DNA of 42,097 nucleotides from Candidatus Babeliales bacterium (GTDB lineage: Bacteria > Babelota > Babeliae > Babelales > Chromulinivoraceae): contig JAGOTL010000005.1 of assembly GCA_018061805.1 (NCBI GenBank), forward strand, positions 1 through 42,097, written 5' to 3'. Under the pieces are notes generated by a model, which saw nothing but the letters and a program-made list of their open reading frames with translations, was not told the DNA's origin and ran no database searches. The stretch's first letter is position 1, and every line of letters starts with the position of its first letter. Both the position numbers and the translations under genes were made by a program. Positions 9,273-15,480 of this stretch are shown here, piece after piece.

Positions 9273-9305
9273 TGATTTGATGTTGATATTGCTGTTGTGA
9301 CTTCT

Positions 9306-10610
9306 ATGAATGTTTCTATTGTTACATTGTTTCCGGAACTGTATGAACAATTTTTAAAAACCAGCTTGATCGAAAAAGCTATTGATAAAAAGCTTTTATC
9401 GTTTAAGTTGCAATCTGTTTTTGATTTTGTGCAGCCTAAGCAACGTATTGATGCGCCAACATTTGGACATAGTTCAGGTATGTTGGTACGTCCAGACGTT
9501 ATGGAACAAGCATTTAATCAATTAGATGCTTCATTGGGAAAATCATTTAAAGTTTTTCTTTCACCGCAAGGGACTCGATTAACTCAAACAACTGCAAAAG
9601 AGTTGTGGAAAAAAATCGAATCACATGAGCATGTTATGTTTGTAGCAAGTCGCTATGAAGGTGTAGATGCGCGTGTTGAGCAAGAATATGCTGATGCAAT
9701 AGTATCAGTAGGTGATTTTGTTGTGATGGGTGGAGATATTCCGGCGATGTTGTTGATGGAATGTTTATTTCGTCATATGCCAGGTGTTGTTGGAAAACAA
9801 GAATCGGTAGAATTAGATTCTTTTTCCGGTGCTTTTGTAGATCATCCCGAATATACCAAGCCGGTTGTTTGGCATGATAGAGAAGTACCAGAAATATTAC
9901 GATCCGGTAATCATGCAGCAATCTCGGCGTGGCGCAAAGAAAAATCTGTGCAACTCACCGTGAAAAAACATTTTGATTGGTTACGATCGCATTGGTTATC
10001 TGCGCAAGATAGACAACTAGCTCATCGTTTTATTCCATCGCATTATGTTGCATTGATGCATGATAAGATTGTATTAAAGGGTGGTCGTGTTGGCACAACG
10101 TCGGTAACATCACTTGATATTCATGATATTGCTCGTTCTAGTGCGACATATAACCTAAAAAACTATTTTGTAGTCACACCGCTTATTGATCAGCAAAAAA
10201 TAGTGAAAACAATTTTAGAGTTCTGGCAAGATTCAACGATTGGTGCTGAATACAATAAAGATCGACAAGAGGCGCTTGATCGAGTTGTTTTGACAGAAAG
10301 CATTCAGGCAGTTATTGCAGATATTGAACAAAAAGAAGGATGTAAACCAATTATTATTGGTACATCAGCTCGATTTGATCAATGTACTGATCGCATGATA
10401 TCGTATCACGATCAGACTAAGGTATGGGGACATGATAGACCTGTACTGTTACTGCTTGGTACTGGCCATGGTATGGCTCAAGAGTTGTTGGATATGTGTG
10501 ATTATTTCTTACAACCTTTACAAGGTTTTTCAGATTTTAATCATCTATCGGTACGATCAGCAGCGGCTATTATATTTGATAAATGGCTTGGTTTTGATGT
10601 TAAATCATAA
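9306..10610 (+). CDS. trmD: TrmD tRNA (guanine-N1)-methyltransferase fused to a C-terminal SPOUT-type RNA methyltransferase-like domain
   Basis: The N-terminal ~250 residues are TrmD, which makes m1G37 in tRNA and prevents frameshifting. SRYEGVDARVEQ, VGDFVVMGGDIPAMLLME and HPEYTKP are its knotted SAM-binding core and active-site segments. From about residue 255 a second domain (TSLDIHDIARSSATYNLKNY, then PIIIGTSAR, then LLLGTGHGMAQE) resembles the RNA methyltransferase domain seen attached to, or next to, TrmD in some phyla (Methyltrn_RNA_4 type, from memory). Total 434 residues against about 240-250 for stand-alone TrmD. The ATG at 9306 is chosen by family alignment; a GTG at 9297 is in frame. 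No clear ribosome binding site is present. Confidence 0.9.
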   Translation: MNVSIVTLFPELYEQFLKTSLIEKAIDKKLLSFKLQSVFDFVQPKQRIDAPTFGHSSGMLVRPDVMEQAFNQLDASLGKSFKVFLSPQGTRLTQTTAKELWKKIESHEHVMFVASRYEGVDARVEQEYADAIVSVGDFVVMGGDIPAMLLMECLFRHMPGVVGKQESVELDSFSGAFVDHPEYTKPVVWHDREVPEILRSGNHAAISAWRKEKSVQLTVKKHFDWLRSHWLSAQDRQLAHRFIPSHYVALMHDKIVLKGGRVGTTSVTSLDIHDIARSSATYNLKNYFVVTPLIDQQKIVKTILEFWQDSTIGAEYNKDRQEALDRVVLTESIQAVIADIEQKEGCKPIIIGTSARFDQCTDRMISYHDQTKVWGHDRPVLLLLGTGHGMAQELLDMCDYFLQPLQGFSDFNHLSVRSAAAIIFDKWLGFDVKS

Positions 10611-11173: not shown

Positions 11174-11195
11174 ATAGAGTAGGGTGTTTAAGATC

Positions 11196-11669
11196 ATGAT
11201 TGTTGGATGTGGTTCTCGTATTTTTCAGATCGTTGTAGTGGGTATGGTTTTTGTGATAACAGCATGTTCGAGTTCTGTGGGTCACCAATCTCGCGCAAAA
11301 CAATATAAAACTCAGGTGCAGCAGGTAACCAAGGCGCAATACAGGGAAATGCTTGCTTTACATAGTGAGATACCAGATCCGTTATTGGGATTTGTAGTTG
11401 ATAGTATCGTGCTCGATGATGCGAATTCTAATATGCTTGAAGTAGTTTACAAAGCTCATAAGAGTACGATGTCACAACAAGAGATACGAGCTGCATACGT
11501 TGCAGATATGGAATTGATTGGTTGGCAATTAGTAGCAGAATTTTCAGGTGATACGCGACAGATGATTTTTGAACGACCACGCAAGGCGATGATGTGTACG
11601 GTTACGTTGTATGAACAAGATTCGATTAAAGTAACCTTGTTTCAAGGTCAGAATAAAAAAGACCTATAG
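11196..11669 (+). CDS. Small lipoprotein of unknown function
   Basis: 157 residues from the ATG at 11196, which has AGGGTG at ideal spacing; the GTG at 11184 overlaps that site and is less likely. A hydrophobic signal (IFQIVVVGMVFVITAC) ends in a lipobox ITAC, so the cysteine at residue 24 should be lipidated. The mature part has an N-terminal polar linker and then a compact domain (DPLLGFVVDSIVL, then YVADMELIGWQLVAEF, then MIFERPRKAMMCTVTLYEQD). Its strand-helix pattern looks like a small periplasmic domain, but I do not recognise the family. It is transcribed alone, between two terminators. Confidence 0.75.
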   Translation: MIVGCGSRIFQIVVVGMVFVITACSSSVGHQSRAKQYKTQVQQVTKAQYREMLALHSEIPDPLLGFVVDSIVLDDANSNMLEVVYKAHKSTMSQQEIRAAYVADMELIGWQLVAEFSGDTRQMIFERPRKAMMCTVTLYEQDSIKVTLFQGQNKKDL

Positions 11670-11695
11670 ATTTCATTAAATCTACAGGTCTTTTT
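11655..11695. terminator. Bidirectional terminator between the lipoprotein gene and the secreted-protein operon
   Basis: GACCTATAGATTT pairs with AAATCTACAGGTC with one mismatch around a 4-base loop. The stem is flanked by A and T runs on both sides, so it can stop transcripts from both directions. It overlaps the lipoprotein stop codon. Confidence 0.8.
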
Positions 11696-11720: not shown

Positions 11721-12143
11721 TTAAGCAAGAGTCTGTTTTAGACTTGTAATATCTGATTCAAGTCTTGCAATTTCAGATCTACGGTTTCTAGCCTCGATCG
11801 TACTTCCTTGGCCTCTTTTCTCTAATTTTTTCAATTCGAGTCTTTGTTCTTTTTTCATTCTTTTCTTTTCAGCTATTTGTTGTTTAGTATCTTTAGTTGT
11901 AGCTTTGTAGCTCGGTTTTGAAGTATCACGTTTCGATTGTTTCTTAGTATCAGTGTTACGTGCATCTTCTCGACGCGCTTTATCTTTTTTGTGGCTTTTA
12001 GCTATACCCCAGCTGATTAAACCAACAGCAGCTGCGGTACCAAGACCAACAGCCCATGCACCACCAGCTGATAATGCGTATGATGAAAGACTTGTCATAA
12101 GTGCAACACTTAAAAGTACTGCTTTTGTAAAATTATTTTTCAT
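11721..12143 (-). CDS. Small secreted protein, cluster member 5: signal peptide, hydrophobic Gly/Ala segment, basic coiled coil
   Basis: 140 residues, family not recognised. A signal peptide (MKNNFTKAVLLSVALMTSL..SYALSA) is followed at once by a small-residue hydrophobic stretch, GAWAVGLGTAAAVGLISWG, that could insert in or lie on a membrane. A long, very basic and charged region comes next and ends in a coiled-coil-like helix (SEIARLESDITSLKQTLA). AAAGGA precedes the ATG. It is last in the five-gene operon, 14 bases after member 4. Its hydrophobic segment resembles those of members 2 and 3 (G-x-A-x-G-x-x-T, then SW or S before a charged part). Confidence 0.75.
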   Translation of the reverse strand: MKNNFTKAVLLSVALMTSLSSYALSAGGAWAVGLGTAAAVGLISWGIAKSHKKDKARREDARNTDTKKQSKRDTSKPSYKATTKDTKQQIAEKKRMKKEQRLELKKLEKRGQGSTIEARNRRSEIARLESDITSLKQTLA

Positions 12144-12157
12144 ACTACTTTCCTTTT

Positions 12158-12553
12158 TTAAGCTACCTTATCTACAACTTTTTTATCTACAGCTTTTTTC
12201 TTTACAACATCAGTCGATTTTTTTGGTGCTGTTTTTGTTGTGCGAGTTTTTGAAGACGTTGTTTTAGCTTTTTTAGTTTTCGTTTTTCGTAATTCATTTT
12301 TTAAGTTTTGAATACGCGCATCTACATCTTTTTGGTTTTGCTTACAATCAGCAGTGATTGCTCGTTTATCTGCTTGCGCAGCATCAAGCCCTTGCGAAAG
12401 AGCAGATTTTGAAGTAAAGCTTTGCGCAACATAATCATCTATTTTCATATCGCGCATATCTAAAGCATCTGATCCTGAAGAATCATCTGCAGATATAGAA
12501 GCGATAGTCATTAACGCAGTAAGCGCAATAATGTATTTATTATATTTTTTCAT
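12158..12553 (-). CDS. Small secreted protein, cluster member 4: signal peptide and histone-like Lys/Thr tail
   Basis: 131 residues, family not recognised. The signal peptide (KYIIALTALMTIASISA) probably ends at about residue 22. An acidic Ser/Asp segment (DDSSGSDALDMRDMKIDD) follows, then a helical stretch (DVDARIQNLKNELRKTK) with one cysteine before it, then a Lys/Thr/Ser tail with TKTAPKKSTDVVKKKAVDKK that resembles histone H1-like tails in composition. Unlike its neighbours it lacks the Gly/Ala hydrophobic segment. An AAGGAG binding site precedes the ATG. It lies 10 bases after member 3. Confidence 0.72.
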   Translation of the reverse strand: MKKYNKYIIALTALMTIASISADDSSGSDALDMRDMKIDDYVAQSFTSKSALSQGLDAAQADKRAITADCKQNQKDVDARIQNLKNELRKTKTKKAKTTSSKTRTTKTAPKKSTDVVKKKAVDKKVVDKVA

Positions 12554-12563
12554 AAATTTCTCC

Positions 12564-12953
12564 TTATTCTAACTCATGTATTAATTCATCAATTTTAGCT
12601 TCTAATCTTTGTATAATATCTCTGTGTGGTTTGATTTGTTGAGCTTTAGTAACATCATCTAAATTGTTTTTTCTATTGATTCGTTCGATATCGCGATTAT
12701 GCTTTTTGATCTCGCGTTTATGAGTTTCGATTTGATTATTAATAGTTCTATTTCGTTGCTGTACTGTTTTTTGTTCGTAATATTCAGGGCTACGTTCTCT
12801 ATTTGCACTTGATGCTATACTCGTAACGGCTATACCCGTCAGAGCACCAGCTGCAAATCCACCACCAAAGCCGCCGCCATCAGCACCTACGTATGATGTT
12901 ACGGTTACCACGGCTAGTGAAGCCATGATACTTTTTTTAAATAATTTGTTCAT
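12564..12953 (-). CDS. Small secreted protein, cluster member 3: Gly-rich hydrophobic segment and coiled coil
   Basis: 129 residues from the ATG at 12953; a second ATG lies 12 bases upstream, but the inner one gives a cleaner signal peptide (MNKLFKKSIMASLAVVTVTS). After a predicted cut near YVGA comes GGGFGGGFAAGALTGIAVTS, a glycine-rich hydrophobic stretch. A highly charged helical region with heptad spacing follows (INNQIETHKREIKKHNRDIE, later IIQRLEAKIDELIHELE). The GGxFxxGxxTxxxVTSxASS pattern matches member 2. Function unknown. Confidence 0.73.
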   Translation of the reverse strand: MNKLFKKSIMASLAVVTVTSYVGADGGGFGGGFAAGALTGIAVTSIASSANRERSPEYYEQKTVQQRNRTINNQIETHKREIKKHNRDIERINRKNNLDDVTKAQQIKPHRDIIQRLEAKIDELIHELE

Positions 12954-12978
12954 AAGAACCCCCATTTAATTTCTATAT

Positions 12979-13467
12979 TTATGATCTTGATATTGATCGT
13001 TCTTTTAGCTCAGCTTGAACAGCTTTAAGTTGTTCTTGAGTATTTTTTAAAGTTTCTTTAGCATCATCAGTTTGTTGGCGTTTTAAATCATCGATTTGAT
13101 TTTGCAAATCGTTAACAGCGCTATTTAGCTGACCATTACTTGCACTTGAAGCCCAACTTGTAACAGCAACTGTCGTCATGAGTCCTAATCCTAAAGCCCA
13201 GCCACCACCCCAGCCACCACCCCAGCCACCATGACCATAACCACCATGACCATAACCACCATGTCCATAACCGCCGTGTCCACCACGTCCACCGCTATGA
13301 CTTGTGCTATGTCCGCCACCGCGACCGCCGCCGCCACCGCGACCGCCACCACCGCCGCCACCGCGACCGCCACCACCGCCGCGACCACCGCCGCCACCGC
13401 GAGGAGACATTATGCTAGGTATTGAAAGCAGAGCGATAAAAGCTAAAAAATGTTTTAATGATTTCAT
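12979..13467 (-). CDS. Small secreted protein, cluster member 2: RGGGGG and GGYGH repeats, hydrophobic segment, coiled coil
   Basis: 162 residues, family not recognised. The signal peptide (MKSLKHFLAFIALLSIPSIM) is followed by about 35 residues of (R)GGGGG repeats, then an SHSGGRGGH linker, three GGYGH units and GGW repeats. Next comes the hydrophobic stretch WALGLGLMTTVAVTSWASSA and a coiled coil (NDLQNQIDDLKRQQ, then TQEQLKAVQAELKERS). The glycine part is coded by GC-rich tandem repeats that stand out from the AT-rich surroundings and may vary in length between strains. The repeats look like eukaryotic RGG or glycine-rich proteins, but export makes an RNA role inside the bacterium unlikely. 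AAAGGAA precedes the ATG. Confidence 0.75.
   Translation of the reverse strand: MKSLKHFLAFIALLSIPSIMSPRGGGGGRGGGGGRGGGGGGGRGGGGGRGGGHSTSHSGGRGGHGGYGHGGYGHGGYGHGGWGGGWGGGWALGLGLMTTVAVTSWASSASNGQLNSAVNDLQNQIDDLKRQQTDDAKETLKNTQEQLKAVQAELKERSISRS
13202..13285. repeat. Tandem 12-bp and 15-bp repeats coding Gly-Trp and GGYGH units
   Basis: Two perfect 12-base copies of CCACCACCCCAG (13202-13225) are followed by 15-base units CCACCATGACCATAA at 13226-13240, 13241-13255 and 13256-13270 (one change), with a degenerate fourth at 13271-13285. All are multiples of three, so copy changes keep the reading frame. Confidence 0.85.
13306..13404. repeat. GC-rich CCGCCA/CCGCGA repeats coding Arg-Gly tracts
   Basis: An imperfect run of CCG, CCA and CGACC triplets encodes the RGGGGG tracts of the secreted protein at 12979-13467. 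The strong GC content is local to this tract, so it reflects codon choice for Gly/Arg and not transfer. Confidence 0.8.
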
Positions 13468-13484
13468 TGCTTATATTCCTTTTT

Positions 13485-13940
13485 TTATATATTTCTTAAT
13501 TCACTATTCAGTTCTTTAAGTTCTTCATTACTTTTTTCTATTTTGGTATTAATTTTTGCAACTTCACGCGAATCTTTTCCGTAGCGCGTAGTTTTATCAG
13601 AAAGTTCTCGTTTCAGCTGACGGATATCTTTTTTCAGATCGCGAATTTGTTTTTTGATTTCGGTCCTGTTTAAAGCATCACGTCGAGTTTGTGGATCATA
13701 AGAAGGTTGATTTGCATTATTAATAGCTTGAACGGTCGCTATTGTTGCTACGGTGTCAGCGATAGCTGCGACAGGAGAGTAATTATATCCATAGCCATAA
13801 TAAGGACCAGGTCCATAGTTAGGTCTATAATAAGGTCTTTGGTAGTAACCCCATCGTGGACCATAGCCATAACTGACATACATCCCTAAGGATTGCTGTG
13901 CCATGCCGGCAATAGCCAAAAATAATACTATTCGTTTCAT
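13485..13940 (-). CDS. Small secreted protein, cluster member 1: Tyr/Gly/Pro-rich low-complexity segment and coiled coil
   Basis: 151 residues from the ATG at 13940, chosen for its strong GGAGGT site and a clean signal peptide (MKRIVLFLAIAGMAQQSLG). The mature N-terminus is rich in Tyr, Gly, Pro and Arg (YGYGPRWGYYQRPYYRPNYG). A small-residue segment, VAAIADTVATIATVQAINNA, parallels the hydrophobic stretch of members 2, 3 and 5, and a charged coiled coil follows (IKKQIRDLKKDIRQLKREL, later KSNEELKELNSELRN). It is first in the five-gene minus-strand operon. Aromatic-glycine regions are sticky and can self-assemble; what this one does is unknown. Confidence 0.75.
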   Translation of the reverse strand: MKRIVLFLAIAGMAQQSLGMYVSYGYGPRWGYYQRPYYRPNYGPGPYYGYGYNYSPVAAIADTVATIATVQAINNANQPSYDPQTRRDALNRTEIKKQIRDLKKDIRQLKRELSDKTTRYGKDSREVAKINTKIEKSNEELKELNSELRNI

Positions 13941-14082: not shown

Positions 14083-15480
14083 TTAATCGAGTAAATCGCT
14101 GGCAAAAGAGTTTATTTTTCCAGCACCTTGGAGGAGTAATAAATCGTGAGGTTGTAAGGTTTGATGTAGGAGCTCTATGATTTCTGTGCCCTCTTTGCTC
14201 AGGGGTATATAGACCGCATTGCTTGAGGGGTTTTTTTGTTGTATGGCGCGTACCATATCATAGCTTGAAAAGCCTGGCTGAGCCTGTTCACCTTTGGCAA
14301 AAATATCGGTAATGATAACCATATCAAGATCAGAGTTACTTAAAACGGTAATAAAATCATGCCATAGATGTTGGGTTCGGGTGTGACGATGAGGTTGAAA
14401 AAGCATGATGAGTCGGCCTTTGCTTTTTTTGCGAGCAACCAAAATCGTATTGCGTATTTCTTCGGGATGATGTCCATAGTCATCTACGATGGTGGCTTGA
14501 TGTCGCTTACTAACTCCTTTGATGGTGAAACGTCTATCGACACCAGAAAAGGTGCCAAGAGCAGCTTGAATTTCATCTAGGTTTAAACTTAGCGTCATTC
14601 CAAGCGTTATGATGCTGGTAGCATTTAAAACATTGTGCAAACCAAGTAATGGTATGCGCATATTTGTATAAACCATGTTGTTACGTGTGTCTACGATATC
14701 AAAAATAGATTCATCAGCCATAAGCTGTATGTTTTCTATGCGAATGTGAGCTTTAGGATGTGTGCCATACGTAATCACGGGTGTGGTGATATGGGGTAAC
14801 ACTGATTGAATGCCCGCATCGTCTAAGCATACAATATTAGTACCGTAGAATGGTAGTTGGTTCATGTATGCTATAAATGTCTGTTTGATATCTTCAAAGT
14901 TTGCGTAGGTTTCAAGGTGCTCTAAATCTATATTAGTTACGATAGAAATAGCCTTTGGTAATTTTAAAAATGATCGGTCACTTTCATCTGCTTCCGCTAC
15001 TGCAAAAAGACTTGAGCCATACTGGGCATTGGTTTGTACAGAGTTGAGCTGTCCACCAATAATAAAAGTTGGGTTTTGATCAAGTTGCAAGAGCATGTGT
15101 GTAGCAAGCGATGTGGTGGTTGTTTTTCCGTGGGATCCTGCGATTGCTATTGAAAATTGTGTTCGCATGATTTCAGCAAGCATATCTGCACGATGTATCA
15201 CTTTGATACCTTTTTGGTGTGCTGCAATTATTTCAGGATGATCTGATCGTATGTCGGTTGTATGTACTAAAAATTGTATAGAAGGATCGCTGCATATGGT
15301 GTCTTGGTGGCAAGAAGCTATAGAGCAGCCATATTTTTTTAAATCTTGTATCTGATTGCCACTTGTTGTGATGTCGCAACCGGATACGGTGTATCCTTTT
15401 TGGAGAAGTATTTTTGCAATACCGCTCATGCCTATGCCGTTGATACCCATAAAATGTATGTGACTTTTGTTGAAAAACAT
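14083..15480 (-). CDS. murC: UDP-N-acetylmuramate--L-alanine ligase
   Basis: Adds L-alanine to UDP-MurNAc, the first peptide step of peptidoglycan synthesis in the cytoplasm. 465 residues from the ATG at 15480. It has the Rossmann motif GINGIGMSGIA near the N-terminus, the ATP loop AGSHGKTTTT (about residue 113), the central-domain segment VAEADESDRSF and the C-terminal-domain DDYGHHPEEI, all typical of MurC. The ATG at 15480 has AAGGA at good spacing; an ATG 15 bases upstream is in frame. A long hairpin covers the binding site (see 15481-15536). No other mur genes are in the window. Confidence 0.94.
   Translation of the reverse strand: MFFNKSHIHFMGINGIGMSGIAKILLQKGYTVSGCDITTSGNQIQDLKKYGCSIASCHQDTICSDPSIQFLVHTTDIRSDHPEIIAAHQKGIKVIHRADMLAEIMRTQFSIAIAGSHGKTTTTSLATHMLLQLDQNPTFIIGGQLNSVQTNAQYGSSLFAVAEADESDRSFLKLPKAISIVTNIDLEHLETYANFEDIKQTFIAYMNQLPFYGTNIVCLDDAGIQSVLPHITTPVITYGTHPKAHIRIENIQLMADESIFDIVDTRNNMVYTNMRIPLLGLHNVLNATSIITLGMTLSLNLDEIQAALGTFSGVDRRFTIKGVSKRHQATIVDDYGHHPEEIRNTILVARKKSKGRLIMLFQPHRHTRTQHLWHDFITVLSNSDLDMVIITDIFAKGEQAQPGFSSYDMVRAIQQKNPSSNAVYIPLSKEGTEIIELLHQTLQPHDLLLLQGAGKINSFASDLLD

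Follow-up and report, generated by a model that had tools for sequence, protein, structure and literature searches.

The adhesin FadA of Fusobacterium is a small exported helical hairpin, and SlyB of E. coli is a glycine-zipper protein. The oligomers of SlyB are transmembrane rings that surround outer-membrane proteins (PMC13067283). CdzC and CdzD of Caulobacter, small neighbouring glycine-zipper proteins of 84–86 aa that associate with the cell surface, are type I secreted, come with an immunity gene and act in contact-dependent killing (PMC5380434). Cultured members of the Dependentiae are intracellular parasites of protists (PMC4378268, PMC6561590), and 44% of Chromulinavorax proteins carry a signal peptide (PMC6561590); exported proteins being this common in the group, a run of signal-peptide genes is unsurprising by itself.

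Here we characterise a row of five minus-strand genes, A to E, in a 42,097-nt stretch of DNA (the window) from a Candidatus Babeliales bacterium whose genome amounts to 0.94 Mb in 51 contigs. The order belongs to the Dependentiae (TM6), since it includes the candidate division TM6 bacterium GW2011_GWF2_43_87 (LCGZ01000001.1, locus L051). To describe the family we used a profile, A2, built from 25 members that include A, C and E, with B outside. The features of the row and its flanks are as follows.

14083..15480, minus strand: murC, upstream neighbour in a conserved slot (Mur ligase domains; conserved gene order)
13485..13940, minus strand: gene A, 151 aa (open reading frame; A2 match and itself an A2 member; AlphaFold model); predicted signal peptide, Tyr/Pro/Gly-rich stretch, Ala-rich helix, helical hairpin
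13713..13778, minus strand: small-residue helix of A, residues 55–76, with Ala replacing Gly (segment scan; AlphaFold helix 56–76)
13491..13694, minus strand: helical hairpin of A, residues 83–150 (AlphaFold helices 83–120 and 125–150, pLDDT 92–97)
12979..13467, minus strand: gene B, 162 aa (open reading frame; A2 match; positional counterparts in same-genus genomes); predicted signal peptide, Gly/His/Arg-rich low complexity, zipper segment, helix
13162..13227, minus strand: irregular zipper segment of B, residues 81–102 (segment scan)
12564..12953, minus strand: gene C, 129 aa (open reading frame; relatives in 18/33 genomes; AlphaFold model); predicted signal peptide, glycine zipper, long charged helix
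12813..12878, minus strand: glycine-zipper segment of C, residues 26–47 (segment scan; helix 31–47 in a low-confidence model)
12158..12553, minus strand: gene D, 131 aa (open reading frame; profile match limited to the signal peptide); predicted signal peptide, acidic stretch, Lys-rich tail, outside the shared design
11721..12143, minus strand: gene E, 140 aa (open reading frame; same-genus relatives at 1.1e-15 and 2.7e-9); predicted signal peptide, Gly/Ala-rich helix, Lys-rich charged region
12012..12077, minus strand: small-residue (partial zipper) segment of E, residues 23–44 (segment scan)
11656..11695, minus strand: terminator hairpin (−21.7 kcal/mol, z −6.7)
11184..11669, plus strand: lipoprotein-like gene, convergent with the row and lying towards rplS (many relatives have genes like it next to rplS)

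An operon-like organisation of A–E is supported. The first-pass annotation had placed five adjacent minus-strand genes with products of 129–162 residues here, and its coordinates, running from 13940 down to 11721, are exact; the intergenic gaps (A–B 17, B–C 25, C–D 10 and D–E 14 nt) agree with its range of 10–24 bases except at the upper end, which is 25. A ribosome-binding-site-like stretch lies ahead of every start from A to E, bearing out the binding site assigned to each gene, and the shared terminator is likewise confirmed in the form of a hairpin flanked by A- and T-runs at 11695–11656, the long stem of which was overlooked by a simple terminator scan and found by folding. This hairpin is probably bidirectional, also ending the convergent plus-strand gene. 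The promoter scan returned 10 promoter-like sites where shuffled sequence gave 7.4 ± 2.6, an uninformative excess close enough to the shuffle level that no promoter is established for the row, and transcription by read-through from murC, at a spacing of 142 nt from gene A, is therefore possible.

Several neighbouring genes deserve mention in their own right. The lipoprotein-like gene is small, fast evolving and without a Pfam match, while trmD (9297–10610, plus strand) encodes a fusion of a tRNA (guanine-1)-methyltransferase domain (PF01746) with Methyltrn_RNA_4 (PF09936), a second RNA methyltransferase domain, with similar lengths in several relatives. Further along the window, a plus-strand gene at 20340–21266 encodes a 308-aa protein with a signal-peptide-like start and, again, no Pfam match.

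By a simple rule, all five proteins of the row begin like signal peptides, with a positively charged N-region, a hydrophobic core and a small-residue cleavage motif, in agreement with their earlier description as exported; export and signal cleavage are accordingly predicted for A–E. The same description had all five ending in charged helices, which holds strongly for A and B, where the helical moment was reached by 0/1000 and 7/1000 shuffles, and fairly for C (52/1000), but helical periodicity was not shown in D (98/1000) or E (308/1000). AlphaFold modelled A with a helix at residues 56–76 and a helical hairpin at 83–150, with block-mean pLDDT of 92–97 across most of the hairpin, and C as a zipper helix followed by one long helix, at a low-confidence mean pLDDT of 60.

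We then compared the proteins with each other by profile–profile alignment after removing the first 20 residues. The probabilities were 97% for A–B, 96% for A–C, 95% for A–E, 97% for B–C and 89% for C–E, against 2–13% in reversed-sequence controls for these well-linked pairs, with only B–E weak at 23%. A reversed control of B against distant C members reached 70%, so single profile comparisons need to be read with care. With its signal removed, D matched none of the other four profiles. Downstream of their signal peptides, A, B, C and E all have a small-residue helix followed by a charged region, and the profiles support, at the level of sequence, their being four diverged duplicates of one design. 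The first-pass view of the whole row as diverged duplicates thus stands for these four and fails for D, which shares only the signal peptide with them.

The first-pass annotation had suggested looking for the cluster in related genomes, and members do turn up at this position in dozens of the order's genomes, which is more than chance. At E 1e-4, profile A2 had matches in 72 of the order's 101 genomes. Of 32 further genomes to which the fetched loci led, the 31 from other bacteria gave no match, and neither did the remaining one, a TM6 genome; since several genomes without an A2 match hold a zipper-like exported gene in the same slot, 72/101 is probably a lower bound. Within the window, A, C and E matched A2 at 1e-25 to 1e-37, being in the profile, B matched at 5e-5 as a called gene and at 0.28 in a six-frame search, and D gave no match. 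A2 searches of the same genome for dispersed copies returned A, C, E and, weakly, B, with nothing else convincing. At 35 loci containing murC plus rplS or trmD, all 66 members lie between these genes, 63 of them on murC's strand (the three exceptions are all in locus L038), and the number of small exported genes that the slot holds on murC's strand varies between 0 and 6. At 12 other loci the members are divergent from glyA, mostly in pairs. Zipper genes that are for the most part paired and divergent from glyA lie at L033:975-1714, L034:5206-6466, L042:6158-6928, and loci L166, L168 and L181-L188; one partner often carries a C-terminal transmembrane helix whose end is basic, which would suit these pairs to tests of topology.

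Exported genes of other kinds were also seen between murC and rplS. Locus L169 (4685-5844) has three in tandem, none matching the zipper profile and two with near-identical starts (MKQLLSIALLAGLC), and at locus L222 (5138-6749), on the other strand from murC, three tandem genes encode exported proteins that have an IRCY motif in common.

The small-residue hydrophobic stretch that had been noticed in four of the proteins is present in A, B, C and E. Taken over the whole family, this stretch can be identified as a glycine zipper, an element already described, because glycine pairs are enriched at spacings 4 and 8 and depleted at 3 and 7. The periodicity test was run first on profile-selected proteins and then, as a guard against selection bias, repeated on proteins picked by position alone from loci outside A2 profile building. 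In this independent set, spacing 4 occurred 137 times against 73.2 ± 6.1 in shuffles (z 10.5) and spacing 8 occurred 81 times against 57.3 ± 5.4 (z 4.4), with spacings 3 and 7 rarer than expected; other small signal-peptide proteins of the same loci gave z 2.3 at spacing 4. Glycine content was 31% in the positional zipper set versus 9% in other signal-peptide proteins of these loci. Among the window proteins the periodicity is clear in C and partial and irregular in B and E, and the helix of A is without glycine, having alanine instead.

In line with the first-pass statement that no known family is recognisable, A–E reached no curated Pfam or NCBIfam cut-off: scans of the five gave only sub-threshold coiled-coil and membrane matches, with no zipper family listed, as did scans of 25 relatives. 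Some positional counterparts come closer to described families. The one at locus L210 scored 35.2 bits for Gly-zipper_YMGG (cut-off 28.9) and 28.4 bits for Gly-zipper_Omp (cut-off 25), the one at L204 cleared Gly-zipper_Omp (PF13488) by 0.1 bit, and others fell short. Those of group f14 resemble classical two-helix zippers, and a link from the window proteins to this group by sequence comparison alone was set aside, C matching it at 94% and its reversed version at 88%; profile likeness to classical zippers is confounded by the repetitive glycine pattern. Homology of the window proteins to classical zipper domains is nonetheless suggested, mostly by position. Matches of the profile in the PDB (Rcf1, ATPase inhibitor IF1, prion protein and MakA) looked compositional and were also set aside, and a Foldseek search with the model of A gave a best E of 0.42.

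The family is real, extends across the order and has duplicated locally, and it arranges a known structural element in a new way. In the literature searched, none was found joining 'glycine zipper' with 'Dependentiae', and the cluster probably represents a component of the cell envelope that is specific to this lineage and has yet to be described. As a working model, to which we assign a probability of roughly 55%, we propose a family of glycine-zipper envelope proteins, exported by Sec and duplicated in place, that self-associate in a SlyB-like manner. Each protein would be exported and lose its signal peptide, and its zipper helix would lack the hydrophobicity needed to lodge in the inner membrane. 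On the biological hydrophobicity scale, the summed value for a zipper segment is +4.2 kcal/mol at the median, with +3.4 in C, +3.7 in E, +4.7 in B and +8.4 in A; hydrophobicity this weak makes a stop in the inner membrane unlikely. The zipper helices may instead pack against one another in or at the outer membrane, giving homo- or hetero-oligomers, with the charged coiled coil in the periplasm pairing with those of sister proteins; co-assembly of the proteins is plausible. In 12 members, most of them linked to glyA, there is an additional C-terminal helix, strongly hydrophobic and basic at its end, and under the positive-inside rule the coiled coil ahead of it would be periplasmic; in the glyA-linked relatives, the coiled coil would pair with a partner having such an inner-membrane anchor. 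Against the model stand the scarcity of a lipobox-like motif, which in contrast to SlyB occurs in only 5 of 102 members, none of them in the window, the lack of glycine in the helix of A and the irregular segments of B and E. We infer an outer-membrane location, oligomerisation and a function: like SlyB and comparable small proteins, the zipper assembly would keep the outer membrane stable or organised. A more elaborate version, an undescribed multi-subunit envelope assembly peculiar to the order, in which an outer-membrane oligomer is built from several paralogous zipper subunits, its coiled coils crossing the periplasm and in some families docking on an inner-membrane-anchored partner to make a membrane tether or conduit, appears distinctly doubtful.

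The first-pass annotation had also raised an action on a host. Adhesins or membrane-active proteins at the bacterial surface or in the protist host, with duplication supplying variants, would suit a group of intracellular parasites with many exported proteins of unassigned function (PMC4378268, PMC6561590), the varying copy number per slot, and the hairpin of A, which is shaped generally like small helical adhesins, though the Foldseek match to FadA is not significant (E 2.3 or worse). Sequence divergence points in both directions: in the window's genus, matched members are 32–43% identical and MurC 49%, a faster divergence that would favour host-directed proteins, but it is similar to that of the neighbouring lipoprotein-like gene. 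In the closest pair of loci (L163/L179), the zipper gene has dN 0.09 and dS 0.96, a dN/dS of about 0.1, compared with dN 0.02 and dS 0.72 for murC and dN 0.09 and dS 0.52 for the lipoprotein-like gene; selection was measured in this one pair, synonymous sites being near saturation in more distant ones. The zipper genes are faster-evolving than murC yet constrained, with purifying selection in this pair, and an arms-race reading was rejected on the dN/dS of this single pair close enough to measure. Given also a position fixed among housekeeping genes, between murC and rplS, in most of the order, and with neither a second secretion signal nor a secretion gene found beside the row, action on a host is unsupported and we consider a host-directed role unlikely.

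The remaining alternatives concern topology and relatedness. If signal peptide and zipper together made a two-helix hairpin in the inner membrane, the charged region would be cytoplasmic, an orientation for which the main argument is that 57 of 98 members carry net positive charge behind the zipper, E in particular having AKSHKKDKARR after its helix; the weak hydrophobicity of the zipper segments, the opposite topology fitted by the 12 members with a basic C-terminal membrane helix and the cleavage motifs in all five proteins make it improbable. Still less credible is a gathering of unrelated small exported genes in a permissive slot, alike through composition alone. The abundance of exported proteins in Dependentiae, the other protein kinds in slots such as those of L169 and L222, the unrelatedness of D and high reversed controls such as that of B against distant C would all be expected of it, but for the five well-linked pairs the reversed controls (2–13%) lie far from the matches (89–97%), the enrichment is of a spacing-specific glycine pattern rather than of glycine content, and C and E have same-genus relatives at E 1e-15.

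Dependentiae are widespread, barely cultured protist parasites with many exported proteins of unassigned function, and here a family found at one fixed locus in most of an order, and duplicated in place, can be reduced to a glycine zipper plus a coiled coil, turning anonymous small proteins into a testable envelope hypothesis.

Compared with described systems, the row shares with CdzC/CdzD its small neighbouring glycine-zipper proteins, but type I secretion and immunity genes are absent beside it, the neighbours being murC, a MerR-type gene, the lipoprotein-like gene, rplS and trmD. Protein A and FadA have in common that both are small exported helical hairpins. With the Pfam families Gly-zipper_YMGG, Gly-zipper_Omp and Rick_17kDa_Anti (PF13441, PF13488 and PF05433), the family described here shares predicted export and a GxxxGxxxG helix near the mature N-terminus, but the window proteins have one short zipper helix in place of the Pfam families' two-helix hairpin, usually lack a lipobox and carry a long charged tail. 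SlyB, finally, is alike in being a small envelope protein with self-packing membrane helices, and provides the proposed working model; it is a single lipoprotein under PhoPQ control, whereas the type seen in the window consists of tandem paralogues, mostly without a lipobox and with coiled coils.
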